Source: a virus. From it: 24,071 nt of DNA. Positions 1 through 8,909 of this stretch are shown here, piece after piece (positions within the stretch are counted from its first letter, which is position 1; the number at the start of each line of letters is the position of its first letter). The notes under the pieces were generated by a model. It worked only from the letters and a program-made list of their open reading frames with translations, did no database searches and was not told the DNA's origin. The position numbers and the translations under genes were made by a program. The stretch spans positions 1 through 24,071 of IMG/VR virus record IMGVR_UViG_3300045999_002451; one strand, written 5' to 3'.

Positions 1-329
1 ACGGATTTACAGTACCAACTAATCGCGGTGGTTGGGTAACAGTGCGCTGTGCCTTCCACAATGATAAGGTTAAGTCAGCGCGTTTAAACATAGACAACGG
101 TGGTTTCCGCTGCTTTGCATGCGAGATGTCTGGTGATGTCTACTCACTCATTATGAAGAAAGAAGGAGTTACCTATGTCAAGGCTCTCGAAATCGCAGAG
201 GGAATTACTGGCGAAAGCAACAGAGAACTACGAAAGAAACCTAGACGAGGTGGCTCCGTATCTGGAGAGTCGCGGTATAACCAAGGAGACAGCACTTATG
301 TTCCGCCTCGGCTTCGTAAAGAATCCTGA
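1..329 (+). CDS. DNA primase, zinc-finger part (5' partial)
   Basis: The reading frame is open from base 3, so the true start lies upstream of the window. The visible protein carries a CHC2-type zinc finger as in DnaG primases: Cys at 48-50, His at 57-59, then a Cys-x-x-Cys pair at 111-113 and 120-122 (FRCFACEMSGD). This is the fold that recognises template during RNA primer synthesis. It is followed by the usual helical stretch (DVYSLIMKKEGVTYVKALEIAEG). After about base 175 the frame becomes rich in Arg, Gly and Ser and overlaps the TOPRIM gene for 155 nt, so its last ~50 codons may be non-functional read-through. Either this is a two-gene primase or the two parts are joined by frameshifting. 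The zinc-finger assignment is secure; the C-terminal limit is uncertain. Confidence 0.8.
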   Translation, partial: GFTVPTNRGGWVTVRCAFHNDKVKSARLNIDNGGFRCFACEMSGDVYSLIMKKEGVTYVKALEIAEGITGESNRELRKKPRRGGSVSGESRYNQGDSTYVPPRLRKES

Positions 330-795
330 GACAGGGCACGAACCATACCAAGGTAAGTTGGCTATCCCATACCTGACACCATCAGGAGTAATTGACATAC
401 GCTTCCGCAGTTTAAACGCAGATAGCGGACCGAAGTATCTATCAAGACCTGGTGCAAGCACACACATTTTTAATGTGGCTGCATTGAATACAGACTCTGA
501 TGTGCTGGTCATTTGTGAAGGTGAGATTGACACGATGATTGCCACACAAGTGGGCTTCGCTGCGGTTGGTTTGCCTGGTGCTAATAACTGGAAGCCGTTT
601 TATACACGAGTCCTTGCGGACTGGGAAAAGATTATGTTGTTCTGTGATGGTGACAACGCTGGTAAGGAGATGGCTAAGACAATCACTCGTGAACTGGACA
701 ATGTGTTTCCAATCTTTATGCCTGAGAACTGTGATGTGAACGATGTGTACCTCGCCGAGGGCGCAGAAGGACTACATAAACGAGCGGGTGTTTAA
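175..795 (+). CDS. DNA primase, TOPRIM catalytic part
   Basis: This 206-aa protein holds the catalytic half of a DnaG-type primase. After a helical N-terminus (SRGITKETALMFRLGFV, residues 32-48) comes the RNA-polymerase-like basic region. The TOPRIM domain follows with its metal-binding acidic residues: CEGEID at 114-119 and FCDGDNAGK at 156-164. It ends with a short tail typical of phage primases (PENCDVNDVYL). No helicase domain is attached. The ATG at 175 lies inside the zinc-finger ORF but has its own Shine-Dalgarno sequence, AGAAGGAG at about 161-168, six bases upstream, which supports independent initiation. The stop codon TAA sits inside a GTTTAAAC motif (790-797), one base from the next ATG. 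Confidence 0.88.
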   Translation: MSRLSKSQRELLAKATENYERNLDEVAPYLESRGITKETALMFRLGFVKNPETGHEPYQGKLAIPYLTPSGVIDIRFRSLNADSGPKYLSRPGASTHIFNVAALNTDSDVLVICEGEIDTMIATQVGFAAVGLPGANNWKPFYTRVLADWEKIMLFCDGDNAGKEMAKTITRELDNVFPIFMPENCDVNDVYLAEGAEGLHKRAGV

Positions 796-798
796 ACA

Positions 799-1185
799 AT
801 GGCTAAAAACTCTAGTTTTGATTTAGACTTTGGGTACGGGAGAAAAGGCGAGCAGTTAGTTGACGAATTATTAACTGGAGGAAGAACAGTAGAAGTTAAG
901 CGTGACCGCAAGTGGTTCAAGACCAACAACCTATACATAGAAACTGAATGTTACTTTGTAAAGACAGAAGCGTGGGCACCAAGTGGATTGGGTGTAACAG
1001 AAGCAGCATACTGGGCATTTGTATTGCAGGAATCTACCTTGATTGTACCCACTGATGTGCTTCGCTACGCAGTTAAAGAGTTTGGTCGTGAGATTAAGTG
1101 TGAGATACCCCCGAACCTAAGTAAGGGATACCTCATAACAGTAGATGATTTAATGACAGCGACAAGGAAATACAAGGATGAGTGA
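799..1185 (+). CDS. PD-(D/E)XK-type nuclease
   Basis: This 128-aa protein looks like a compact PD-(D/E)XK endonuclease, possibly Holliday-junction-resolvase-like. An N-terminal acidic residue in GRKGEQLVDELL (Glu18, with Asp22 nearby) precedes the core TVEVKRD (Glu32-x-Lys34). Then come LYIETECY and a SGLGVTEAAYW segment, an order seen in phage nucleases of this fold. Such enzymes process recombination or replication intermediates, which fits its place next to the primase. The ATG follows the primase stop by three bases, with GTTTAAAC covering the junction. The exact substrate cannot be read from sequence. Confidence 0.7.
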   Translation: MAKNSSFDLDFGYGRKGEQLVDELLTGGRTVEVKRDRKWFKTNNLYIETECYFVKTEAWAPSGLGVTEAAYWAFVLQESTLIVPTDVLRYAVKEFGREIKCEIPPNLSKGYLITVDDLMTATRKYKDE

Positions 1186-1339
1186 CGAAGAACTAATAGA
1201 GGCTATCGAACAGGCTTGCTACTTTATTCCTGCTGAACGCATGCAAGATACTGGTAGTGGCAAGCCTTCTGCTTACATAGATGGCATCACTAATGGTAGG
1301 AAACAAGCCATTGAAATTATTAGGAGTCGCAATGGATGA
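1178..1339 (+). CDS. small hypothetical protein (53 aa)
   Basis: I do not recognise this short gene. It starts at ATG 1178, inside the last codons of the nuclease gene, and ends at TGA 1337-1339, overlapping the start of the sigma-like gene by 8 bases. Both overlaps are typical of translationally coupled phage operons and are the main evidence that it is real. The protein begins MSDEELIEAIEQAC, is acidic at the N-terminus and more basic at the C-terminus (NGRKQAIEIIRSRNG), and looks mostly helical. It has no transmembrane segment and no zinc motif. Without it there would be an unexplained 150-base gap in a tightly packed operon. Confidence 0.6.
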   Translation: MSDEELIEAIEQACYFIPAERMQDTGSGKPSAYIDGITNGRKQAIEIIRSRNG

Positions 1340-2000
1340 GCAAGACAAGATTTGGGAAACTATCTATGGCACAGCACGACAAGTTGCATCACGCAGTAAC
1401 CGCATCCATCGTGGACTGGTAACTACTGATGATGTGTACCAACACTTATCTTTGTGGGCGTTGGAACACTGGCACAAGATAGAAGAATGGGAACAGCAAG
1501 AGTCGTTGAAGTTTAAACTACGCCGTACTTTCTACAATGAAGCACAGAAGTATGTTGCAAAAGAGCGCATGCACCACTCACGCACGCCTATGTCTGATAG
1601 TTTTTATTACACCCATGAGGTACTGCACGAACTATTGCGTGATGTGTGGGAGCATGAAGGGTGGACAGATACAGCAGACTTAAGCAATGAGTATGTGTCT
1701 AAGTCAAGCAAGCCAGCAGAAGGTGGCAACCGAATGGCTTTGCTATCTGATGTGGCGGCGGGGCTAAAGCGTTTAAACGATGCAGACCAGGCGCTGCTGC
1801 GGCTGAGGTATGCTGATGGTGGCATGGAGTTTGATGCATTGGCTGAGGAATACCAAGCAACAGAGGAAGCCATACGCAAGCGTGTCAAGAGAGCGTTGAC
1901 TAAGTTGCAAGATAGATTAGGTGGCGAAGCGCCAGTGTGGTATGGGCGTAGGCGTAACCGCAGTAATGCAGAAGCACGACAAGAGGTAAGTGATAACTAA
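1332..2000 (+). CDS. sigma-factor-like DNA-binding protein
   Basis: This 222-aa protein resembles a small sigma-70-type factor. The N-terminal half is helical and Trp/Arg-rich (residues 10-80, including LVTTDDVYQHLSLWALEHW), in the place of region 2. Residues about 144-195 read as a region-4-type helix-turn-helix: GLKRLNDADQALLRLRY, then an EFDALAEEYQATEEAIRKRV recognition segment. It probably directs host RNA polymerase to phage promoters or acts as a related HTH regulator; this is inferred from fold, not tested. The start is ATG 1332, with AGGAG at 1322-1326. An in-frame codon upstream (1281) lacks such a site and would overlap the 53-aa gene more. The C-terminus is basic (GRRRNRSNAEAR). 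Confidence 0.68.
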   Translation: MDEQDKIWETIYGTARQVASRSNRIHRGLVTTDDVYQHLSLWALEHWHKIEEWEQQESLKFKLRRTFYNEAQKYVAKERMHHSRTPMSDSFYYTHEVLHELLRDVWEHEGWTDTADLSNEYVSKSSKPAEGGNRMALLSDVAAGLKRLNDADQALLRLRYADGGMEFDALAEEYQATEEAIRKRVKRALTKLQDRLGGEAPVWYGRRRNRSNAEARQEVSDN

Positions 2001-2119
2001 TGTTTAAACGGATTCGCCATCGGTTTTGTTTTAATTATTTATGGCATGTGATAGACCCACAAGCAAGTTTTTGGTGGGTTAAATGTACTAAGTGTGGATA
2101 CATAAAGGAGATGAAATGA
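2000..2119 (+). CDS. tiny CxxC protein (39 aa)
   Basis: This tiny gene begins at ATG 2000, sharing its A with the TAA of the sigma-like gene (TAATG), and ends at TGA 2117-2119, overlapping the kinase start as ATGA. The peptide starts MFKRIRHRFCFNYLWHV and contains FWWVKCTKCGYIKEM, a single Cys-x-x-Cys knuckle in an aromatic context. That looks like half of a zinc ribbon, so a dimer or a binding partner could complete the site. The start codon is embedded in a GTTTAAAC motif (2002-2009). Coupling on both sides supports expression. The function is unknown. Confidence 0.62.
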   Translation: MFKRIRHRFCFNYLWHVIDPQASFWWVKCTKCGYIKEMK

Positions 2120-2652
2120 TTATTGGTTTGAGTGGATACGCACGCAGTGGCAAGGATACAGTTGCTGAACTGTTGTGTTTGAATTATGGATACAAGCGCG
2201 TATCATTTGCTGACCCAATGCGTGAGGCACTGTTGCGTTTAAACCCTACTATTAACCATGAACCTCTGGCTCATCTTGTGAATGATTATGGTTGGGATGT
2301 AGCCAAGACTAACCCTGAGGTACGCCGTTTGTTACAAGTGTTTGGCACCGAAGTTGGTAGAGAAATGTTTGGCGAAAACTTCTGGGTTGACTTAGCGTTT
2401 AAACAAGTGCAGCAAGAGCGCGTTGTGTTTGCTGATGTTCGCTTTCCTAATGAAGCACAAGCAATTATCAAAAGAGGTGGACAAGTCTGGCGTGTACAGC
2501 GTGAAGGACACAAGCCTGTCAACTTACATACATCTGAAACTGCAATGGATAACTGGCGGTTTGATGATTTGATTCTTAATCATGGCAACCTTGATGACCT
2601 AGCCGATGAAGTCTTTATGTTGGCTAAGCAAAAAGAAATTAACTTGGCATAA
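2116..2652 (+). CDS. deoxynucleoside monophosphate kinase
   Basis: This 178-aa P-loop kinase transfers phosphate from ATP to (d)NMPs, feeding dNTP synthesis for phage replication. The Walker A loop is GYARSGKDT (residues 7-15). The DPMREALLRLNP segment, the LLQVFGTEVGRE helix with FWVDLAF, and the VVFADVRFPNEAQAI strand-loop match the T4 gene 1-like dNMP kinase family. A dephospho-CoA kinase is less likely given these motifs and the phage context. The chosen start is ATG 2116, with AAAGGAG at 2104-2110; an upstream in-frame GTG (2092) would lie inside the tiny CxxC gene. The gene contains two GTTTAAAC motifs and is the last gene of the rightward operon. Confidence 0.85.
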   Translation: MIIGLSGYARSGKDTVAELLCLNYGYKRVSFADPMREALLRLNPTINHEPLAHLVNDYGWDVAKTNPEVRRLLQVFGTEVGREMFGENFWVDLAFKQVQQERVVFADVRFPNEAQAIIKRGGQVWRVQREGHKPVNLHTSETAMDNWRFDDLILNHGNLDDLADEVFMLAKQKEINLA

Positions 2653-2657
2653 AAGAA

Positions 2658-2695
2658 GAAGCACCGCGAGGGACTGGAACCTCAAGCGGTGCTTC
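2658..2695. terminator. intrinsic terminator between convergent operons
   Basis: A perfect 10-bp inverted repeat (GAAGCACCGC at 2658-2667 with GCGGTGCTTC at 2686-2695) has an inner GAGG/CCTC pairing separated by a two-base bulge. It lies in the 62-base gap between the kinase stop (2652) and the WhiB stop (2715). The flank on the leftward transcript reads TTCTTTTAT and that on the rightward transcript TCTGTTGT, so it can end transcription from both sides. Confidence 0.85.
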
Positions 2696-2714
2696 TCTGT
2701 TGTAGCCTATCAGA

Positions 2715-3080
2715 CTACGAACGAACTAGCGAATCGGTAAAGTTATTTGGGTCTGTCATTGCCCAACCTAACTTCCTCCGAAGCGTTGTTCTAGTATCGG
2801 GTGTTGTGCCACCCCATACCCCATACCTTTCATGAGCCAAGCCCCACTCCAAGCAAGCACTGACAATGGGGCAGTCCTTGCATAGATTTTCATAGAACTT
2901 TGTCTCAACCTTTGTAAACTGTACAACCTCGGGATAAAACATCTCTGTGTTTAAACCTCGGCATGCACCCTCTGACATAACTTCTCCGTTGTAGTTAAGC
3001 CGAAAGTATTTCAACCCATCTATAACTTTTTGTTGCATTATTCTGTGGAACTTAGGCGTGCTGGATAGTTTGGGTACCAC
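2715..3080 (-). CDS. WhiB-family transcriptional regulator
   Basis: This 121-aa protein has the four cysteines that bind the 4Fe-4S cluster in WhiB proteins: Cys40 (GACRGLNTEMFYP), then Cys67, Cys70 and Cys76 (LCKDCPIVSAC). The EWGLAHERYGVWGG turn (residues 78-91) and a basic TRTTLRRK tail for DNA contact complete the family pattern. WhiB proteins act with the host sigma factor to change promoter choice; phage versions can repress host genes or cause superinfection exclusion. The start is taken as GTG 3080, directly after the upstream TAG with AAGAGGA preceding; an internal ATG at 3038 lacks a ribosome-binding site. One GTTTAAAC lies inside the gene, encoding the GLN of CRGLN. Confidence 0.92.
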   Translation of the reverse strand: MVPKLSSTPKFHRIMQQKVIDGLKYFRLNYNGEVMSEGACRGLNTEMFYPEVVQFTKVETKFYENLCKDCPIVSACLEWGLAHERYGVWGGTTPDTRTTLRRKLGWAMTDPNNFTDSLVRS

Positions 3081-3524
3081 CTAGTACCATCCTCTTGAAA
3101 GACTAGAAGCATACGCCTTGCAGATATTGCCTCCGTATTTTCTTTCAATGTACGCAAGCCCTGCATCCACTTGTAAGTATCCGTCCTCGGTTTGCTTGTG
3201 TCCAACCAAGCCCCATGTGACTGGCATTAACTGTGCGATGCCTGCTGCTTTGCTTTCCTTGTTCAATGCTGCTGGTCGCCAGTTACTCTCGCGTGTCCAC
3301 AAATCATGCAGGCATGACCACTGTTCAAGCCGTCCATCCTTGGTGAGTTGGTCTATGGCGTAGCGTTGGTAGTCGTTTGTGTAATACGCAACAACTTGAC
3401 CTGACATCGGTGAGTGTTTAAACGGAATCACTGACTTGGAATCGCGGGGAAATAATGCGATTGCTAATACGAACACGATGACTGTGACCAGCCATAACCT
3501 ACCGCTAGGCGTTAGTCGGTTCAT
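3081..3524 (-). CDS. membrane-anchored lysozyme/transglycosylase-like protein
   Basis: This 147-aa protein has a signal-anchor at residues 10-25 (LWLVTVIVFVLAIALF) after a short basic N-terminus, and then an extracytoplasmic lysozyme-like domain. The domain holds the likely catalytic Glu79 in LHDLWTRESNW, followed by AAGIAQLMPVTWG and a GGNICKAYASSLSRGWY ending, as in SLT/aggregation-promoting-factor-type muramidases. It would cleave peptidoglycan from outside the membrane, either for lysis or for local wall remodelling. The start is uncertain. ATG 3524 gives an 18-nt overlap with the upstream gene. ATG 3602 has a better Shine-Dalgarno (GGAG, spacing 6) but a 98-nt overlap and adds an Arg-rich cytoplasmic tail. 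Confidence 0.78.
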   Translation of the reverse strand: MNRLTPSGRLWLVTVIVFVLAIALFPRDSKSVIPFKHSPMSGQVVAYYTNDYQRYAIDQLTKDGRLEQWSCLHDLWTRESNWRPAALNKESKAAGIAQLMPVTWGLVGHKQTEDGYLQVDAGLAYIERKYGGNICKAYASSLSRGWY

Positions 3525-3879
3525 ACTCTGCTTCAATCTTGTTCTTGTCCGCGCATACTTTCTTGATGAACGCGAGGATGTCCTGCGGTATGTCTGTGTC
3601 ATTGCCTTCTCCATCATCCTTGCCTAGCACAATCATGTTGCCAAGCATCATTGGGTTATTGCCGAACATGAAAGACAACGCGCTCGCCACTGTGTTTAGT
3701 GGTAGTCCAAGCAGGATGCCTTCCTCATTTACATAGCCTGTCAGTACTTCATCTCCATAGTAATCGTACATGTGAACAATCTCAATCAACCCATTGACTG
3801 CGCCTTGCATATCTTTGAGTCCATTGAAATCCTTTTCTTCATAGGTTCCATCGGGGTAAAGCACTGCACCTTTGGGCAT
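3505..3879 (-). CDS. DUF3846 domain protein
   Basis: This 124-aa protein matches the DUF3846 pattern common in phages and plasmids: GLIEIVHMYDYYGDEVLTG, then YVNEEGILLGLPLNTVAS (residues 49-66), which is the family signature. It is followed by a region rich in Met and Asn and a hydrophobic strand, MIVLGKDDGEG. The biochemical role of the family is unknown to me. The start is ATG 3879, preceded by AAAGGAG eight bases upstream. An in-frame extension to 3966 would overlap the upstream 51-aa gene and has no ribosome-binding site. The gap of 61 bases before this gene is unusual within the operon. Confidence 0.75.
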   Translation of the reverse strand: MPKGAVLYPDGTYEEKDFNGLKDMQGAVNGLIEIVHMYDYYGDEVLTGYVNEEGILLGLPLNTVASALSFMFGNNPMMLGNMIVLGKDDGEGNDTDIPQDILAFIKKVCADKNKIEAEYEPTNA

Positions 3880-3940
3880 CTGTCCGTCTCCTTTGATTAT
3901 GGTTTGCTTTATTTTTATCTGTGTTCTTTTAATAACTACC

Positions 3941-4096
3941 TTACTTGGAGTCATGTTTAAACTCACGACCGACTTCTAACTCTGCGCCAATCGCGTTAAC
4001 AGCATCTGATAGAGCCTTAAAAAACTCTACCTTCTTGTCCTCACTGAGGTGTGCCACCATCTCGGATGTAACCTCTGCTTTCCATAGCGTTGTCAT
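3941..4096 (-). CDS. small hypothetical protein (51 aa)
   Basis: This short leftward gene starts at 4096 in an ATGA overlap with the upstream DUF7249-like gene and ends at TAA 3941-3943. The peptide begins MTTLWKAEVTSEMVAHLSED and is predicted helical and amphipathic, ending EVGREFKHDSK. No family is recognised. The stop/start coupling and lack of another candidate in this interval support it. A GTTTAAAC motif (3955-3962) is read here as part of the codons for Glu-Phe-Lys-His near the C-terminus. Confidence 0.6.
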   Translation of the reverse strand: MTTLWKAEVTSEMVAHLSEDKKVEFFKALSDAVNAIGAELEVGREFKHDSK

Positions 4097-4350
4097 GAGT
4101 TCAATCCCTTCATCATTTGATTTAGTTCTGCGTAAGATAGTTTATCGCTAATGAATGGCACGCTGTCAATAGTTTCTTTCTCTGTTAATCCAGCATGCTC
4201 GACCCATGATTTGTATGGGGTGGCACCTTTGTATAGTTTCATAAAGTCAAGGGCTGATAGGTAAAGTTTGTACTCGTTGTTGATAATGAGTGCAACATTC
4301 CATGTCTCGTAGTTTGCCCAGCCTTGGTAGGTTTGTTTAGTAGTTGGCAT
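4093..4350 (-). CDS. DUF7249-like protein (85 aa)
   Basis: The diagnostic part is the N-terminal WANYETWNVALIINNEYKLY (residues 11-30), a pattern widespread in small phage and plasmid proteins that I recall as DUF7249. No catalytic residues can be named. The rest is helical and ends KLSYAELNQMMKGLNS. The start at ATG 4350 is supported by GAGGT six bases upstream; an earlier in-frame codon (4371) has no site. Its stop overlaps the next gene start as ATGA, and its own start lies within the tail of the 47-aa gene, so three genes are coupled here. Confidence 0.68.
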   Translation of the reverse strand: MPTTKQTYQGWANYETWNVALIINNEYKLYLSALDFMKLYKGATPYKSWVEHAGLTEKETIDSVPFISDKLSYAELNQMMKGLNS

Positions 4351-4480
4351 AGCGCACCTCAATCTCGTCAATCCTTGCTTGGATTAGGTCAAGTAAAACA
4401 CAGTATAATTTTGGGTCATCGAATAGAGGGTTCTCTTGTGCCCTCTTGTACTCCGCCCGCAAAACTTCTAACTCATCCAT
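4337..4480 (-). CDS. small hypothetical protein (47 aa)
   Basis: This short helical, acidic protein begins MDELEVLRAEYKRAQENPLF and ends DEIEVRYANY. It overlaps the DUF7249-like gene by 14 bases. Its ATG (4480) follows directly after a GTTTAAAC motif (4481-4488) that also supplies the TAA stop of the upstream 71-aa gene, a junction of the form GTTTAAACATG. No family is recognised. The heptad-like N-terminus could form a coiled coil. Confidence 0.58.
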   Translation of the reverse strand: MDELEVLRAEYKRAQENPLFDDPKLYCVLLDLIQARIDEIEVRYANY

Positions 4481-4482
4481 GT

Positions 4483-4698
4483 TTAAACACCCTCGCTTTC
4501 TAGTTCTTGAATCTGTCGCTTGAGATTAGCGATGCGTTCTGCTTTGGTTGGATGCACCCTGCCACCCATTTCAATGACCAGCGCTCGGTACTTTTCTGTG
4601 TATTCCTCGTGGTACTTGTGGCATAGGTGCTTAACCGCTAGTTGCTGTGCTTTCTGATGTATCCGTACCTTTGCAGGGTCTCGTTTTGCCACTGCCAT
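4483..4698 (-). CDS. small basic helical protein (71 aa)
   Basis: This 71-aa protein is strongly basic at its N-terminus (MAVAKRDPAKVRIHQKAQQL) and has a His/Cys-containing stretch (VKHLCHKYHEEY, residues 22-33). It ends in a helical tail resembling a coiled coil (AERIANLKRQIQELESEG). It could bind nucleic acid, but no family is recognised. Its ATG abuts the TAA of the upstream membrane-protein gene with no gap. Its TAA lies within GTTTAAAC. Confidence 0.62.
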   Translation of the reverse strand: MAVAKRDPAKVRIHQKAQQLAVKHLCHKYHEEYTEKYRALVIEMGGRVHPTKAERIANLKRQIQELESEGV

Positions 4699-4860
4699 TT
4701 ACTTGCCTACCTTCTGTGCATCCTTCAAGATTTTAATTGTTCTGCGTAGGTTCTTGTTGTCGTTACTTAATGCATGGTTGCCCACGATGAGAGCAATGAG
4801 TGTTCCTACCAATACGAATAGCAGAATCACGATAGCGAATAGGTCTGTTGAAGTTAACAT
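4699..4860 (-). CDS. small single-pass membrane protein (53 aa)
   Basis: This is the first gene of the downstream leftward operon. The 53-aa product starts MLTSTDLFAIVILLFVLVGT and has one clear transmembrane segment (residues 7-26), followed by a basic cytoplasmic-type tail (NKNLRRTIKILKDAQKVGK). The topology suggests an N-out or signal-anchor protein; a role in lysis control or superinfection exclusion is possible but cannot be shown. There is no good Shine-Dalgarno site before the ATG. A perfect 8-2-8 inverted repeat lies 26-43 bases upstream of the start codon. Confidence 0.65.
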   Translation of the reverse strand: MLTSTDLFAIVILLFVLVGTLIALIVGNHALSNDNKNLRRTIKILKDAQKVGK

Positions 4861-4885
4861 TTGAATCTAGTTTCCAATCTATTTG

Positions 4886-4903
4886 GTAAGCAAGGTTGCT
4901 TAC
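4886..4903. promoter_or_regulatory. perfect 8-2-8 inverted repeat, candidate operator
   Basis: GTAAGCAA and TTGCTTAC flank a two-base GG centre, upstream of the first gene of the downstream leftward operon. The geometry suits a dimeric regulator, or a hairpin in the leader RNA. No known regulator is assigned. Confidence 0.45.
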
Positions 4904-5002
4904 AGAAAGAATCATCTCATACTGTATGCAATGCGTGTCAAGTACATTTGAAAACTTTTTTAAATTATTTTTTTGTTTAAACATAACCGCATCTATCTTT
5001 TA

Positions 5003-5021
5003 GTTTTACCTGCGGTAAAAC
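5003..5021. promoter_or_regulatory. inverted repeat with 3-base loop
   Basis: GTTTTACC (5003-5010) and GGTAAAAC (5014-5021) form a perfect 8-bp repeat with a TGC loop, just downstream of one TTGACAC element on the leftward strand. It could be an operator or an RNA hairpin. Confidence 0.42.
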
Positions 5022-5185
5022 CTACCTTACCATCCGTGTCAAGTACCACTGTTTAAACATTTAAATAACAGTACACATATTTGGGTGTCAACTCTTATAC
5101 TGTTTAAACGCTATGCAATTAGCAGTCCCTGGGTGTGAGTGCTAACTGTTTAAACACAACTATAGTTATTTGGGTGTCAACTTTT

Positions 5186-5203
5186 TATGTGTTAAAACAC
5201 ATA
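5186..5203. promoter_or_regulatory. perfect 8-2-8 inverted repeat, candidate operator
   Basis: TATGTGTT and AACACATA flank AA, five bases upstream (leftward sense) of the TTGACAC at 5175-5180. It has the same 8-2-8 geometry as 4886-4903 but a different sequence. The position suggests control of the leftward promoters. Confidence 0.42.
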
Positions 5204-5208
5204 ATGCA

Positions 5209-5227
5209 CCCAACGATTTTTGTTGGG
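5209..5227 (-). terminator. secondary hairpin after the GATase gene
   Basis: CCCAAC (5209-5214) pairs with GTTGGG (5222-5227) around a 7-base loop. It lies just past the stronger terminator at 5236-5271 in the leftward direction, so it may act as a back-up. Confidence 0.4.
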
Positions 5228-5228
5228 C

Positions 5229-5271
5229 AAAAGAAAAACCCCCGCCAAAGCAGGGGCTTTAGCAGGGGTTT
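5229..5271 (-). terminator. intrinsic terminator of the upstream leftward operon
   Basis: AAACCCC (5236-5242) pairs with GGGGTTT (5265-5271), extended by GC/GC and AAAG/CTTT pairs around a six-base loop. The two mismatches are C.A on the + strand, and so become G.U wobble pairs on the leftward RNA, giving a continuous ~15-bp stem. A T-rich tract (TTCTTTT) follows on that strand. It sits 38 bases past the amidotransferase stop. Confidence 0.85.
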
Positions 5272-5309
5272 CTTATTCGGCTCGCCTTCCACGAAAAGCC
5301 GAAACTTAT

Positions 5310-6116
5310 TTAGAATAGGTGCGAGTCATAGTAACTTGCATGCTCGCTTAACTCATCCTCATACTTTCCGATTGCGTACTTGCGCCAGTCGTGGCTGATT
5401 GATGAGCGGTAAGGCTTGAACTTTTGATGCTCAATAATCTTTCCGTTCTTGACCTTGAAGTACTCGCCTTCATCTGCTGAGTATGACCAGTCAAGGTCTG
5501 AACCAAGCATGATGCCTGCGTTCTCGATTGTCTCCTCTGTTGAACCATAAACCAGTGAACCAGTAAGGGTCTGACCTATCCACAATGGGCTGTTAGATAC
5601 ACGAGCAAGGTGCAAGGTGTCGCCTTGGTCTTGGGTAATCCAAGCCAATGCAGCACTACCTTGGATGCGTGTTAATACCTCGGCAGGATGTTTGCCCTGA
5701 GTAAAGGCAAGCAATGCAGCAACAGCCTCTGAATCTACCTGACCGATGCGGTCAACCTTGAGTTGTTTAAACAGTTGGTCATCGTTGGCGATGTGTCCGT
5801 TGTGAGTGAGTACGATTTTGCCACGCGGAATTGGGTGGTTGTTGTCGTTAATACTTGGCGAACCTTGAGTTGCCCAGCGTGTATGCAAGATTGCAGTTGT
5901 TGCATCCTTGCATACATTCTGACCAGCCTTGGTAGCGATGAACTTAGAGGCTGAGATTGGTGCCTTAGTAATGGCACGCTTTCCCTCCTTGTTAATCCAT
6001 GCCACACCAGTGGCGTGATAGCCACGATGTTCGATGTCGAGAAGCATCTGCGATGCTAACTCTGTTGTGTTTACATGGTGCTTAGGGTTAAGGCAGAAGC
6101 CTGCGATTCCACACAT
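5310..6116 (-). CDS. class II glutamine amidotransferase
   Basis: This 268-aa protein has an N-terminal-nucleophile glutaminase domain like that of GlmS or PurF. Cys2 (MCGIAGF) becomes the N-terminal nucleophile after Met removal. HRGYHATGVAW (30-40), HTRWATQGSP (78-87), HNG (105-107) and VDSE (127-130) are the glutamine-binding and oxyanion-hole motifs, and all are intact. It therefore should release ammonia from glutamine. The ~130-residue remainder is not a sugar-isomerase or PRTase domain, so the acceptor must come from another protein. The amidoligase in the same operon is the obvious candidate. GGAG about ten bases before the ATG is the likely ribosome-binding site. Confidence 0.9.
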   Translation of the reverse strand: MCGIAGFCLNPKHHVNTTELASQMLLDIEHRGYHATGVAWINKEGKRAITKAPISASKFIATKAGQNVCKDATTAILHTRWATQGSPSINDNNHPIPRGKIVLTHNGHIANDDQLFKQLKVDRIGQVDSEAVAALLAFTQGKHPAEVLTRIQGSAALAWITQDQGDTLHLARVSNSPLWIGQTLTGSLVYGSTEETIENAGIMLGSDLDWSYSADEGEYFKVKNGKIIEHQKFKPYRSSISHDWRKYAIGKYEDELSEHASYYDSHLF

Positions 6117-6302
6117 TTATTTATTCTCCAGTCTTGTAGGTGTTGATGTTGTAATTGTATCACGACTGATGCGCGTTCCAATAACCTTGTTTAAACAGTC
6201 ACTTGCAACGAGGTAATCCGCATCTGATTTGGAGTAAACCCCAGCGAACTTTCGTCCGCTTGGGTCTACACCTTCCACGATGTATAACAATTCGTTACTC
6301 AT
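6117..6302 (-). CDS. small hypothetical protein (61 aa)
   Basis: This 61-aa protein begins MSNELLYIVEGVDPSGRKFAG and reads as a beta-strand/helix mini-domain (YIVEGVD, FAGVYSKSDADYLVASDC). That arrangement resembles small phage proteins of unknown role. It ends with a Thr/Ser-rich tail. The start overlaps the upstream 29-aa membrane ORF by 8 bases, and the stop adjoins the amidotransferase ATG. It contains one GTTTAAAC, encoding Leu-Asn within DCLNK. Confidence 0.6.
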   Translation of the reverse strand: MSNELLYIVEGVDPSGRKFAGVYSKSDADYLVASDCLNKVIGTRISRDTITTSTPTRLENK

Positions 6303-6384
6303 TGCCGAGCCAATACCATGCCCATGTTAAGGCAATGATTGCAACGATGAGAAACGAGCGACCATCTACGATTGATAAGTCCAT
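6295..6384 (-). CDS. tiny membrane peptide (29 aa)
   Basis: The 29-residue peptide MDLSIVDGRSFLIVAIIALT... is essentially a short lead followed by one transmembrane helix (SFLIVAIIALTWAWYWLG) and a short acidic tail. Its ATG (6384) follows directly after GTTTAAAC (6385-6392), which also contains the TAA of the upstream zinc-ribbon gene. Its TAA overlaps the next gene by 8 bases. Size and hydrophobicity resemble small phage membrane effectors. Its position between two coupled genes argues for translation. Confidence 0.5.
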   Translation of the reverse strand: MDLSIVDGRSFLIVAIIALTWAWYWLGNE

Positions 6385-6386
6385 GT

Positions 6387-6491
6387 TTAAACACGCACCT
6401 TCGTAGCCTCGCCACAGTCTTGGCATGACCAGTAGATTCCGTCTTGGCTTGATGAATAGTCAACGCTTGCGCCACAGTCTTTGCATCTCAT
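6387..6491 (-). CDS. mini zinc-ribbon protein (34 aa)
   Basis: This 34-aa protein is almost only a zinc ribbon: MRCKDCGASVDY (Cys3, Cys6), then IYWSCQDCGEATKV (Cys23, Cys26), the 2+2 Cys pattern of a rubredoxin-type knuckle. It starts two bases after the TAA of the 51-aa gene. A longer in-frame reading to 6614 lies over that gene and is rejected. Its stop codon is within the GTTTAAAC at 6385-6392. A nucleic-acid or protein adaptor role is likely but unproven. Confidence 0.6.
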   Translation of the reverse strand: MRCKDCGASVDYSSSQDGIYWSCQDCGEATKVRV

Positions 6492-6493
6492 GA

Positions 6494-6649
6494 TTAAGCA
6501 CCAGCCTTGATGTTCACAATGATGGCACTGAACTTTGTCGCACCAGTGTTTAACTCTGCGATTGTGTCGTTGATTTCCTTCATGCTTGATGCACTTAGGT
6601 TTACACCAACACAACGGCTACCTTGCATAATTGCGTATTCGATTGTCAT
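6494..6649 (-). CDS. small hypothetical protein (51 aa)
   Basis: This gene starts at ATG 6649 with AAAGGAG nine to fifteen bases upstream, the best ribosome-binding site in this stretch. The product begins MTIEYAIMQGSRCVGVNLSA and reads as strand-helix-strand with a central SSMKEINDTIAELNTG helix and a final hydrophobic strand (FSAIIVNIKAGA). No family is recognised. A GTTTAAAC lies just before its ribosome-binding site (6666-6673). Confidence 0.62.
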   Translation of the reverse strand: MTIEYAIMQGSRCVGVNLSASSMKEINDTIAELNTGATKFSAIIVNIKAGA

Positions 6650-6700
6650 GATTCCAGTCTCCTTTGTTTAAACAGTCCGAGGCTTTCTCGTCCTGCTTGT

Positions 6701-6745
6701 GCCTGCCGAGGGTAACGCTCCCTCGCTTGCCCACTTGGGGCAGGC
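6701..6745 (-). other. intercistronic two-part hairpin
   Basis: GCCTGCC (6701-6707) pairs with GGCAGGC (6739-6745), with an inner GAGGG (6708-6712) and CCCTC (6720-6724). It lies between the amidoligase stop and the next gene and has no T-tract. It is more likely an mRNA-processing, stabilising or attenuating structure than a full terminator. Confidence 0.45.
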
Positions 6746-6752
6746 TGTCGGC

Positions 6753-7526
6753 TTACGCCTGACCTTGTAGGCTCAAGGCGCGTTGCTTGAGGTATTCCGC
6801 TGTTCGTACATCGAGGTTGTCCTGTGCGATTTCATCGAGCAGGGTTTGGATGTTGTTTAAACGGATGTCTGTTCGTGAGTAGGTTGCTCCGAGCAGATTG
6901 TTGCCCTTGCTGTAATCAATGAGTCCTGCAATGAACTCTGCCCAAGCAACAGCCTTGCGACCATTCAAGGTGCCTTGGTGTAGGCGAACCTCGATTGTGC
7001 CATGGCGGTCAAAAGATTCGAGATTGAGCGACACATAGCGGTCACCGATTCCGATTCTGCCTGAGCGGATTTGCTCGGCTGTCTCGTGAGCCTCGGCAAT
7101 AGTGCGAACCTTGCAGAAACGATTGTTTAAACGGCTTGGGGCAACCAAGGTGCCGATTGTTTCGTGTGCTGTGTGCCAGTTGATGTAAAAATTGGCAAGC
7201 GCGTTAAAGCGGTCGCTGAGCGTATCGCCAAAACTGTCGAAACCGATATGGACATGGTAACCAGTTGAGCGGTCAACCCTTGCGCCTGCATTTAACAACA
7301 AGCGTGCAACAGTTGAAGCCTCGTTTAAACGGGCATCGTTAAGGATTGGAGAAACTACCTCGGCTCCTTGGATTGAGCCGTCATAAACGGCTGTCCACTC
7401 GGTTGAAAGCACATGCTGATTGCGAGGGGCGAGACAGTTGATTCCGCCCTGAGTCAAAACAGTTGATGCGGTTGATGGTGAGATTCCGTTGACCTCGAAC
7501 TCGAGTCCGTATGTAAAAGTAGACAT
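6753..7526 (-). CDS. amidoligase-family enzyme (glutamine-synthetase-like fold)
   Basis: This 257-aa protein fits the phage/bacterial amidoligase family, whose members have a glutamine-synthetase-like COOH-NH2 ligase fold and use ATP to join a carboxylate to an amine. Motifs in order are YGLEFEV (6-12, metal-binding Glu9 and Glu11), YDGSIQGAEVVSP (48-60), GYHVHIGF (89-96, the H-x-H signature), DRYVSLNL (162-169) and TIEVRLHQGTLN (177-188). All expected catalytic residues seem present. The acceptor and donor are unknown; a peptide or cell-wall substrate is possible. GGAGG precedes the ATG, within the end of the SprT-like gene. It contains three GTTTAAAC motifs, each encoding Leu-Asn (RLN). Confidence 0.85.
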   Translation of the reverse strand: MSTFTYGLEFEVNGISPSTASTVLTQGGINCLAPRNQHVLSTEWTAVYDGSIQGAEVVSPILNDARLNEASTVARLLLNAGARVDRSTGYHVHIGFDSFGDTLSDRFNALANFYINWHTAHETIGTLVAPSRLNNRFCKVRTIAEAHETAEQIRSGRIGIGDRYVSLNLESFDRHGTIEVRLHQGTLNGRKAVAWAEFIAGLIDYSKGNNLLGATYSRTDIRLNNIQTLLDEIAQDNLDVRTAEYLKQRALSLQGQA

Positions 7527-7529
7527 GGT

Positions 7530-8099
7530 TTAAGCCTCCACTAGAGATTGGTTGCATGCAGGGCAGATTGGGGAGCCAAGATTCACGAGAGTTGAGCGAG
7601 AAACTCGGGCAATGTAGTTGTCGTTTAAACAGGCAACCTTGATGAGGCGAGTTGATTGTTTTGGAGCCTCGGCTAACTCGATTTTTGCATGAGGGTATGC
7701 ACCAAGGCGAGCCAAGATTGGCTCAACCCATGAGGGCAACGACTCGAGAGGCTTGGCAACCGAGGCTGAGGCTGAACGCCAGTTTCCAGCCTGAGCAACC
7801 TTGAGCAAGGGCAGAATTAGACGGGCAACAGTCTCGGCATCGTCCACAGTTGGAGCCACAAAAATCTCGGCTGTGAAATCGGCTGAGGCTGTTGGAGGCA
7901 CGATTGAGGCTGAAACAGCCTTGCGCCCTGATTTTGGAGGAAAGCCACAGGAAAGGCGAATTGCAGATTCCTCATCGCCTCCGTTTTGGATAGTTGAGGC
8001 AAGGTGAGGGCGTACAGCAATGGCAAGGCTTGCCAGCCACTGTTCGCGGTTGAGTACAGGCATTTGGTGCATCCAGTCTGTCGGGGGTTTTGCCGACAT
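7530..8099 (-). CDS. SprT-like protein lacking the HExxH protease motif
   Basis: This 189-aa protein follows the order of phage SprT-like metalloprotease proteins: LNREQWLASLAIAVRPHL, SCGFPPKSG, AEIFVAPTVDDAETVARLI, LGAYPHAKI, KQSTRLIKVAC and a C-terminal CPAC knuckle. Where active relatives have a VHELVHA-type zinc site, this one reads ILPLLKVAQ with no His-Glu pair. The first half of the C-terminal knuckle is VACLNDNY instead of a C-x-x-C pair. It is therefore probably a non-catalytic homologue. The start is taken as ATG 8099; an in-frame TTG (8147) overlaps the promoter-like sequence and an ATG at 8063 is also possible. It is the first gene of the upstream leftward operon. Confidence 0.65.
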   Translation of the reverse strand: MSAKPPTDWMHQMPVLNREQWLASLAIAVRPHLASTIQNGGDEESAIRLSCGFPPKSGRKAVSASIVPPTASADFTAEIFVAPTVDDAETVARLILPLLKVAQAGNWRSASASVAKPLESLPSWVEPILARLGAYPHAKIELAEAPKQSTRLIKVACLNDNYIARVSRSTLVNLGSPICPACNQSLVEA

Positions 8100-8104
8100 G
8101 GAGA

Positions 8105-8134
8105 AACTTAGGGCATCGTTTAAACCGATGTCAA
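8105..8134 (-). promoter_or_regulatory. candidate leaderless promoter of the SprT-like/amidoligase operon
   Basis: On the leftward strand TTGACA (8134-8129) is followed after 18 bases by TAAGTT, a weak -10. ATG 8099 comes five bases after that, so the transcript would start almost at the start codon, as in many actinobacterial leaderless mRNAs. A GTTTAAAC (8118-8125) fills the spacer, where a bound protein would block polymerase. Confidence 0.5.
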
Positions 8135-8261
8135 CAGATAACGGCAAAAAAGATAAAACCGCAGGTCGCTACGCATAAAACTTTTTTGCGACACGAGGCT
8201 TTTGGGGTGGATTTTGTGGCACAAAACAGCCCACAGCGAACAGGGAAAGTTTAAACAGTCG

Positions 8262-8388
8262 TAAGTTACCGAGGAGTAACAAGGCTAAAGTCAGTGCTAT
8301 ACACTGATAATTCGATTCTTACTGTATCGGCATAACTCTAAAGTGTCGTTAAACAACTGACTTTAGCGATTTACTGGCGAGTAACTTA
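8262..8388. repeat. large interrupted inverted repeat with 60-base loop
   Basis: Three blocks pair in register: TAAGTTAC (8262-8269) with 8381-8388, AGTAA (8275-8279) with 8371-8375, and GCTAAAGTCAGT (8284-8295) with 8356-8367. They are separated by internal loops of 5/5 and 4/3 bases. The 60-base loop is 8296-8355. It could be a structured RNA, a replication or packaging element, or paired operators. Confidence 0.7.
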
Positions 8389-8580
8389 TGGCGGTTGTTG
8401 AACTTTCAACTACTTATGCTGAGCCTGCATGCTGGGGGGGAGCGCGGATACTGTGAAAGAGCGCGAGCCTATACAGAGTCAGCGCCTCAGCCTGCCCTAG
8501 CCCTGCCTGTTCCTAGCCAAGCCTGCATGCATAGCCTTGCAAGCAGGTGCTTAACTGTTTAAACAGCAAGCATTGCAGGT

Positions 8581-8596
8581 GGGTGAGTCATCACCC
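8581..8596. promoter_or_regulatory. short inverted repeat
   Basis: GGGTGA and TCACCC flank GTCA. It lies between the GTTTAAAC at 8557 and the tandem GGTATC repeat. It could be an operator or small hairpin; no regulator is assigned. Confidence 0.35.
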
Positions 8597-8614
8597 CAGG
8601 GTTATTAAACTGCT

Positions 8615-8632
8615 GGTATCGGTATCGGTATA
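8615..8632 (+). repeat. tandem GGTATC repeat (three copies, last imperfect)
   Basis: GGTATC GGTATC GGTATA is a short direct repeat in the control region. Iteron-like repeats can mark replication or regulator sites, but three short copies are weak evidence. Confidence 0.4.
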
Positions 8633-8696
8633 TCTCTACCTACATAAATTTGATAGTGGTGGGGGTCTGACCTGCACTTTTACCCATAAGCAACAG

Positions 8697-8712
8697 TGTG
8701 ATGTAAATCACA
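8697..8712. promoter_or_regulatory. CRP/GlxR-type palindrome
   Basis: TGTGATGTAAATCACA matches the TGTGA-N6-TCACA operator of the CRP family in full, including the central TA of the actinobacterial GlxR form TGTGANNTANNTCACA. A TATAAA at 8716-8721 follows closely. This suggests host cAMP-dependent control of the rightward late operon. Confidence 0.6.
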
Positions 8713-8720
8713 CGCTATAA

Positions 8721-8747
8721 AGTGTCCAATAGTGTCCTTCTGGACAC
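8721..8747. promoter_or_regulatory. GTGTCC direct and inverted repeat set
   Basis: AGTGTCC occurs at 8721-8727 and again ten bases later at 8731-8737. The second copy forms an inverted repeat with GGACAC (8742-8747). The helical-turn spacing suits cooperative binding next to the presumed late promoter; the sequence TATAGTAT follows at 8749-8756. Confidence 0.45.
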
Positions 8748-8759
8748 CTATAGTATAGT

Positions 8760-8785
8760 GAGAGGCGAAATTATCGGAGCCTCTC
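8760..8785 (+). other. leader hairpin 1 upstream of terminase
   Basis: GAGAGGC (8760-8766) pairs with GCCTCTC (8779-8785) around a 12-base loop. It is the first of several stems in the leader before the terminase gene. Confidence 0.45.
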
Positions 8786-8797
8786 TGCTAAGCAACA

Positions 8798-8814
8798 GCG
8801 CCCTCTAGGGGCGC
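8798..8814 (+). other. leader hairpin 2 upstream of terminase
   Basis: GCGCCC (8798-8803) and GGGCGC (8809-8814) enclose TCTAG, a compact GC-rich stem. No T-tract follows, so a simple terminator is unlikely. Confidence 0.5.
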
Positions 8815-8823
8815 ACCCTAAAT

Positions 8824-8867
8824 GAAGCCCTAACCTTCGGCTTCGTTTAGACTTCGCCTTCGGTTAG
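8824..8867 (+). promoter_or_regulatory. leader with two competing stems
   Basis: GAAGCC (8824-8829) can pair with GGCTTC (8839-8844), while CTAACC (8830-8835) can pair with GGTTAG (8862-8867). The second 5' arm lies in the loop of the first stem and its partner lies outside, so the pairings are exclusive or form a pseudoknot. TTCG is repeated four times between the arms. Confidence 0.5.
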
Positions 8868-8909
8868 AGTTTGCCCCAAAACTCACCACAAATGGTTTTG
8901 GAGCATGCT

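Follow-up and report, generated by a model that had tools for sequence, protein, structure and literature searches.

The window analysed here is the whole of a 24,071-base virus record from an uncultured actinobacterial phage, and its genes are arranged in two arms that diverge from a non-coding gap. The arm on the left of the gap carries WhiB-like, sigma-like and primase-like genes together with an amidoligase and a glutamine amidotransferase, and the arm on the right carries the terminase, portal and structural genes. The gap extends from a leftward gene at 7530–8147 to terL at 8871, and the inverted repeat at 8262–8388 is located within it, at the point where the leftward, non-structural arm parts from the rightward terminase and structural operon. 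The repeat contains 25 base pairs around a 60-base loop, as the initial annotation described it. The pairs are distributed over an outer block of 8 (8262–8269 with 8381–8388), a middle block of 5 (8275–8279 with 8371–8375) and an inner block of 12 (8284–8295 with 8356–8367). All three blocks had been described as being in register, which is correct for the outer and middle blocks, whereas the inner one is displaced by one base, the internal loop next to it having 4 nt on the left and 3 nt on the right.

The regularity of the repeat had been judged too high for chance, and the folding statistics bear this out. The z-scores are −3.62 on the plus strand and −4.72 on the minus strand, none of 200 shuffled sequences folds equally well on either strand, and the 12-bp inner arms surpass those of all 30 shuffled versions of the region that holds them. 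Among 752 folds of 127-nt segments scanned along the window, the element ranks second on the minus strand and fourteenth on the plus strand. The strongest fold of the window, with z −9.8 in a scan using 15 shuffles, is found at 5185–5311 on the minus strand. It lies downstream of the gene for the glutamine amidotransferase and includes a stem that resembles a classical terminator and has a T run.

Anatomy of the element in related phages

Relatives were collected with the TerL of the window (80 close loci), with the glutamine amidotransferase (80 loci) and with the TerL of locus L101 (80 more distant loci), and the element itself was gathered by two pattern scans. The resulting alignment comprises 46 distinct elements; L149, L132 and L127, unrelated sequences that matched by the spacing rule only, were left out. 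All 46 elements are 125–128 bp long despite their diverging interior, and in the orientation of terL they consist of the modules P, B, M, A and P in this order. The outer palindrome P has the consensus TAAGTTACYnRYnRGTAAC(TTA), also given as TAAGTTAC-Y-nnnn-R-GTAAC(TTA), and its two copies are 103–106 bp apart. In the window, the left P (TAAGTTACCGAGGAGTAAC) occupies 8262–8280 and has the core GTTAC-n6-GTAAC, of which GTTAC/GTAA is invariant in all 46 aligned elements, and the right P (TTTACTGGCGAGTAACTTA) is found 105 bp away at 8370–8388; these two sites are the only matches to TTACn6GTAA in the window. Between them lie two imperfect palindromes of about 33 bp and of like sequence, the clearest members of which read CTCTAAAG...CTTTAGAG. 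Module B at 8283–8315 (alignment columns 22–54) has its left arm GCTAAAGTCAGT at 8284–8295 and a partner half that is degenerate in the window, module A at 8336–8368 (columns 75–107) reads CTCTAAAG...CTTTAGCG with its right arm ACTGACTTTAGC at 8356–8367, and the alignment places the variable middle M at 8316–8335. Many relatives have an extra B-like module to the left of the element. Because A resembles B, pairing is possible between the left half of either module and the right half of its partner, and the long hairpin seen in the window results from this. The inverted repeat is a conserved array of DNA palindromes, and the long hairpin is not the conserved trait.

A mobile, MITE-like palindromic element was considered and rejected, as the full element, in every case with both flanks found, occupies the same gap between terL and the leftward arm, and the host-type genomes (genome_contigs) contain 0 copies of it. 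The more distant relatives (TerL 43–47%) have pairs of P in the same gap upstream of terL, at different spacings and with a different interior. Helical phasing of the P spacing was likewise discarded as independent evidence: the signal at 10.5 bp (Rayleigh p ~0.003, 99 non-redundant pairs) stems from the 103–106-bp cluster, and periods of 9 to 12 are nearly equal among the long spacings.

Arrays of P are also present in other viral contigs, in 102 stretches. From these and an element pattern scan 50 records were picked, 25 of which have terL (phrog_2). The P sites of L116, L159, L352, L358/L376 and L379/L380 are located at most about 1.5 kb upstream of terL; in G005, G022, G023, G035, G042, G044 and G050 the arrays are far from terL, and for this reason no general rule linking P to the terminase is claimed. 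The GTTAC-n6-GTAAC clusters of L352 (7200–7500), L358 (2070–2270), L376 (780–975) and L379 (3620–4020), phages with another type of TerL, overlap or adjoin a small reading frame directly upstream of terL.

Each P is by itself a perfect small hairpin, and in a few relatives (e.g. L109, L113, L115 and L144) a T run follows the left P on the leftward strand, as might be expected of a transcription terminator or a bidirectional insulator between the operons. However, the T run is absent in the window, a fixed length of 125–128 bp is unneeded for termination, and a simple scan calls no terminator at 8262–8388, in agreement with the initial annotation, so that this explanation appears highly improbable.

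The rest of the gap contains further palindromes. The palindrome GTTGAACTTTCAAC at 8397–8410 is associated with the element and lies outside the 127-bp unit, and among the relatives 21 of 65 close and 14 of 57 distant ones have a palindrome of the GTTGAAnTTCAAC type upstream of terL. Upstream of terL there is also a CRP-like palindrome, GTGTGATGTAAATCACAC, at 8696–8713, and the corresponding pattern TGTGAn6TCACA occurs in the terL-upstream gap of 23 of 65 close versus 40 of 57 distant relatives. Next to terL, 8720–8870 is a conserved block with a GTGTCC/GGACAC..TATAGTAT-like sequence and leader hairpins, and the plus-strand fold at 8705, belonging to this terL-proximal block, ranks fourth of the 752 scanned.

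Constraint on the palindromes: DNA or RNA

A small RNA had been among the functions first proposed for the repeat. A small structured RNA or leader, on this strand or the other, would agree with the strong fold on both strands and with the pairing of the inner stem, which in the relatives reaches 72.5% as against 66.8% in shuffles (none of 500 as high) and also exceeds slid controls. The covariation analysis that had been suggested as a check gives a divided answer, since next to this excess the arms change without compensation, which is largely the outcome named in the initial annotation as counting against its reading. Only 5 of the 46 elements have all 12 pairs of the inner stem intact, three of its pairs are unpaired in 27, 28 and 30 of the 46 sequences, and the consensus (covariance) fold retains the outer pairs only, with an energy of just −3.2 kcal/mol and a covariation term of −0.12. 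The first and last loop bases of P, compared over 134 distinct contexts, are T-A in 53, C-A in 36, T-G in 33, C-G in 8 and other combinations in 4; within the elements (92 P sites), C-A occurs 29 times, T-G 9 times and C-G not once. Finally, the window has no match in Rfam. The uncompensated changes in P, together with an inner stem that is perfect in 5 of 46 elements, argue that the unit is a DNA site and not an RNA, and a structured RNA is accordingly very unlikely. The simplest account of the pattern would be a set of dyad-symmetric sites in DNA with predicted binding of protein.

Some dyad constraint does act on the inner stem, and the local palindromes are paired above shuffles to a similar extent (66.8 versus 63.1%). 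Two of these observations count against reading the sites as an operator: the pairing of the inner stem above both shuffles and slid controls may leave room for pairing within a single strand, and the preference of C-A over T-G in P would be a tolerable wobble if the minus strand were present as RNA.

Linkage to the left arm and its iterated octamers

The distribution of the element among close relatives separates it from the terminase. The TerL proteins of L005, L007 and L013 are 97, 94 and 93–94% identical to that of the window, yet the element is missing from these phages. Homology to the window begins in them at 8427–8437, just to the right of the element, and continues up to terL, which delimits a terL-linked block at 8427–8870. 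Since relatives with such similar terminases are without it, the element, as judged from the loci compared, is linked to the left arm and not to the terminase, and this linkage makes an operator-like site of the arm the best reading. To the left of 8427–8437 the DNA of L005, L007 and L013 is unrelated to the window, as in an exchange of the left arm, with a recombination boundary close to where a genome end is predicted below.

The left arm is further distinguished by an iterated octamer, GTTTAAAC, which occurs 29 times in the window against 0.62 expected, in coding and non-coding DNA alike. All but two of the copies (12352 and 17731) lie to the left of terL, 27 sites at 82–8564, and in 31 relatives the density is 2.35 per kb to the left of terL versus 0.10 to the right. 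Left arms rich in GTTTAAAC are found at 30 of 30 element-bearing versus 8 of 26 element-less loci, a comparison that ignores kinship and covers the 56 close TerL loci, out of 80, that were included with at least about 1 kb of upstream sequence. Alternative octamers, counted in 14 loci, take its place in other left arms: GTCTAAAC is iterated in L018 (16 copies), L064 (17) and L061 (12), which still share the amidotransferase, amidoligase and 7530 genes, and TGTCTTAA/CTTAAGAC are iterated in, for example, L005 (20 and 16) and L013 (26 and 24). The octamer-dense zone of one 41.6-kb relative spans about 8.1–22.1 kb. Among the matches listed, the literature on overrepresented palindromes in phage genomes does not include the GTTTAAAC octamer.

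A comparable system is that of the stoperators of the cluster A mycobacteriophages, which are 13-bp asymmetric sites of a known repressor, present in many copies per genome and with variants specific to subgroups (PMC6550527). The iterated octamers resemble stoperators in their copy number and in their subgroup-specific variants. In contrast to them, the octamers are palindromes or near-palindromes, a repressor of theirs would be hypothetical, and the element is a single compact array. It is conceivable, although doubtful, that the element and the iterated octamers (GTTTAAAC, GTCTAAAC or GTCTTAAGAC-like) belong to a single system of DNA specificity in the non-structural arm, the former as its master site and the latter as its dispersed sites. 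Such a system could be stoperator-like or serve replication or maintenance; it would be confined to the arm, stop at the end of the packaged genome and be exchanged together with the arm by recombination at the junction.

Predicted genome ends and the function of the junction

The cultured cousins of the phage are the Streptomyces phages of the Beephvirinae, with TerL about 50% identical. All six Beephvirinae checked (Zeigle, Stella, Fabian, JPandJE, RosePharie and Dennebes) have exact direct terminal repeats of 253–275 bp in the homologous gap, and in all six the start of the motif ACCC(C/G)(A/G)GGGTTGTTAA precedes the repeat's right end by exactly 39 bp. A motif of this kind, ACCCCAGGGTTATTAA, is found on the plus strand of the window at 8593–8608, which predicts the right end of a direct terminal repeat at 8631, between positions 8631 and 8632. 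If the repeat is as long as in the Beephvirinae, its left end would fall at 8357–8379, inside the right-hand portion of the element. A profile built from close relatives over the 400 bases that precede their terL has its top match at the spot of the motif in six of seven Beephvirinae left ends (best E-value 4e-4). The right end of the element precedes the motif by 172–281 bp in 42 of the 46 cases, the other four contigs ending before it, and the left end of the Beephvirinae repeats precedes it by 214–236 bp. These correspondences suggest that the junction of the left arm and terL is most probably an end of the packaged genome. The ends of contigs were also considered as genome ends, 23 of 51 upstream ends within 6 kb lying 0–800 bases upstream of terL; this enrichment was not used, because the ends have no common distance to the motif and assemblies break in variable non-coding DNA in any case.

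The terminal-repeat region of the Beephvirinae thus shares with the window phage the gap to the left of terL, the ACCC..GGGTTnTTAA motif and, in some members, an inverted repeat at the left end. The left end lies within an inverted repeat of similar span clearly in three of the six (controls equally good: 2 of 170 in Stella, 0 of 172 in RosePharie and 0 of 179 in Dennebes), weakly in one (Fabian, 9 of 171) and not in the remaining two. Unlike in the window phage, neither the GTTAC/GTAAC palindromes nor CTAAAG modules are recognised in this region of the Beephvirinae, and the ends given for the window are predictions. Concatemers of T7 reportedly acquire a hairpin end, where palindromic DNA adjoins the terminal repeat on its left, and palindromic DNA beside the left end, here a predicted one, would be a feature common to both phages.

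By analogy, the palindromes could act at a concatemer junction, where they would assist in nicking, folding or re-priming the DNA and in this way allow the terminal repeat to be duplicated before packaging, as has reportedly been proposed for the hairpin end of T7. The position of the element relative to the cultured terminal repeats fits such a role, and the P arrays found upstream of terminase genes in less related phages would also suit packaging. However, phages with nearly identical TerL do without the element, no sign of nicking is seen here, and among 19 element-less relatives tested (excluding L018, L061 and L064, where the motif is not recognised) a different inverted repeat scoring above all 30 shuffles is present at this place in L075, L077 and L079 only. 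Of the packaging element proposed in the initial annotation the place fits, while the element does not accompany this type of TerL everywhere, and we consider the concatemer role possible but rather unlikely.

A replication origin, in which P and the inner modules would serve as sites for an initiator, would account for a multi-palindrome array in a divergent gap. Of the distant relatives, 15 of 57 have DnaA-box-like sequences upstream of terL, and in L101 one of them, TTATCCACA, is located between its two P sites (8193 to 8323). In contrast, none of the 65 close relatives has a DnaA box at this place, and neither an initiator gene nor an unwinding element was identified, so that an origin seems improbable.

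The reading we tentatively prefer, at slightly less than an even chance, is an operator-like multi-palindrome site of the leftward arm, placed at a junction of control region and genome terminus. The element would be a double-stranded array of sites for one or more dimeric DNA-binding proteins, in which the two GTTACYnRYnRGTAAC palindromes 103–106 bp apart frame the two imperfect palindromes of about 33 bp. One or more proteins, presumably encoded in the left arm, would bind all four palindromes, and the 127 bp would thereby be folded into a compact complex that controls divergent transcription at the junction of the arms. Candidates would be the sigma-like and WhiB-like proteins, the 205-aa product of the gene at 7530–8147 and, outside this arm, the helix-turn-helix domain at the N terminus of the terminase. 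Against this reading, no sigma-70-type promoter sites are found in the element region; the phage carries its own sigma-like gene.

No description of the element was found in the open-licence papers searched. Across a large group of uncultured actinobacterial phages, the element appears to mark a conserved junction of control region and terminus, and it provides genome-end coordinates that can be tested, at 8631 and near the element itself. The octamers, confined to one arm and specific to subgroups, are the stronger oddity, and they could make the specificity of repression or replication testable in phages of which there are no isolates.
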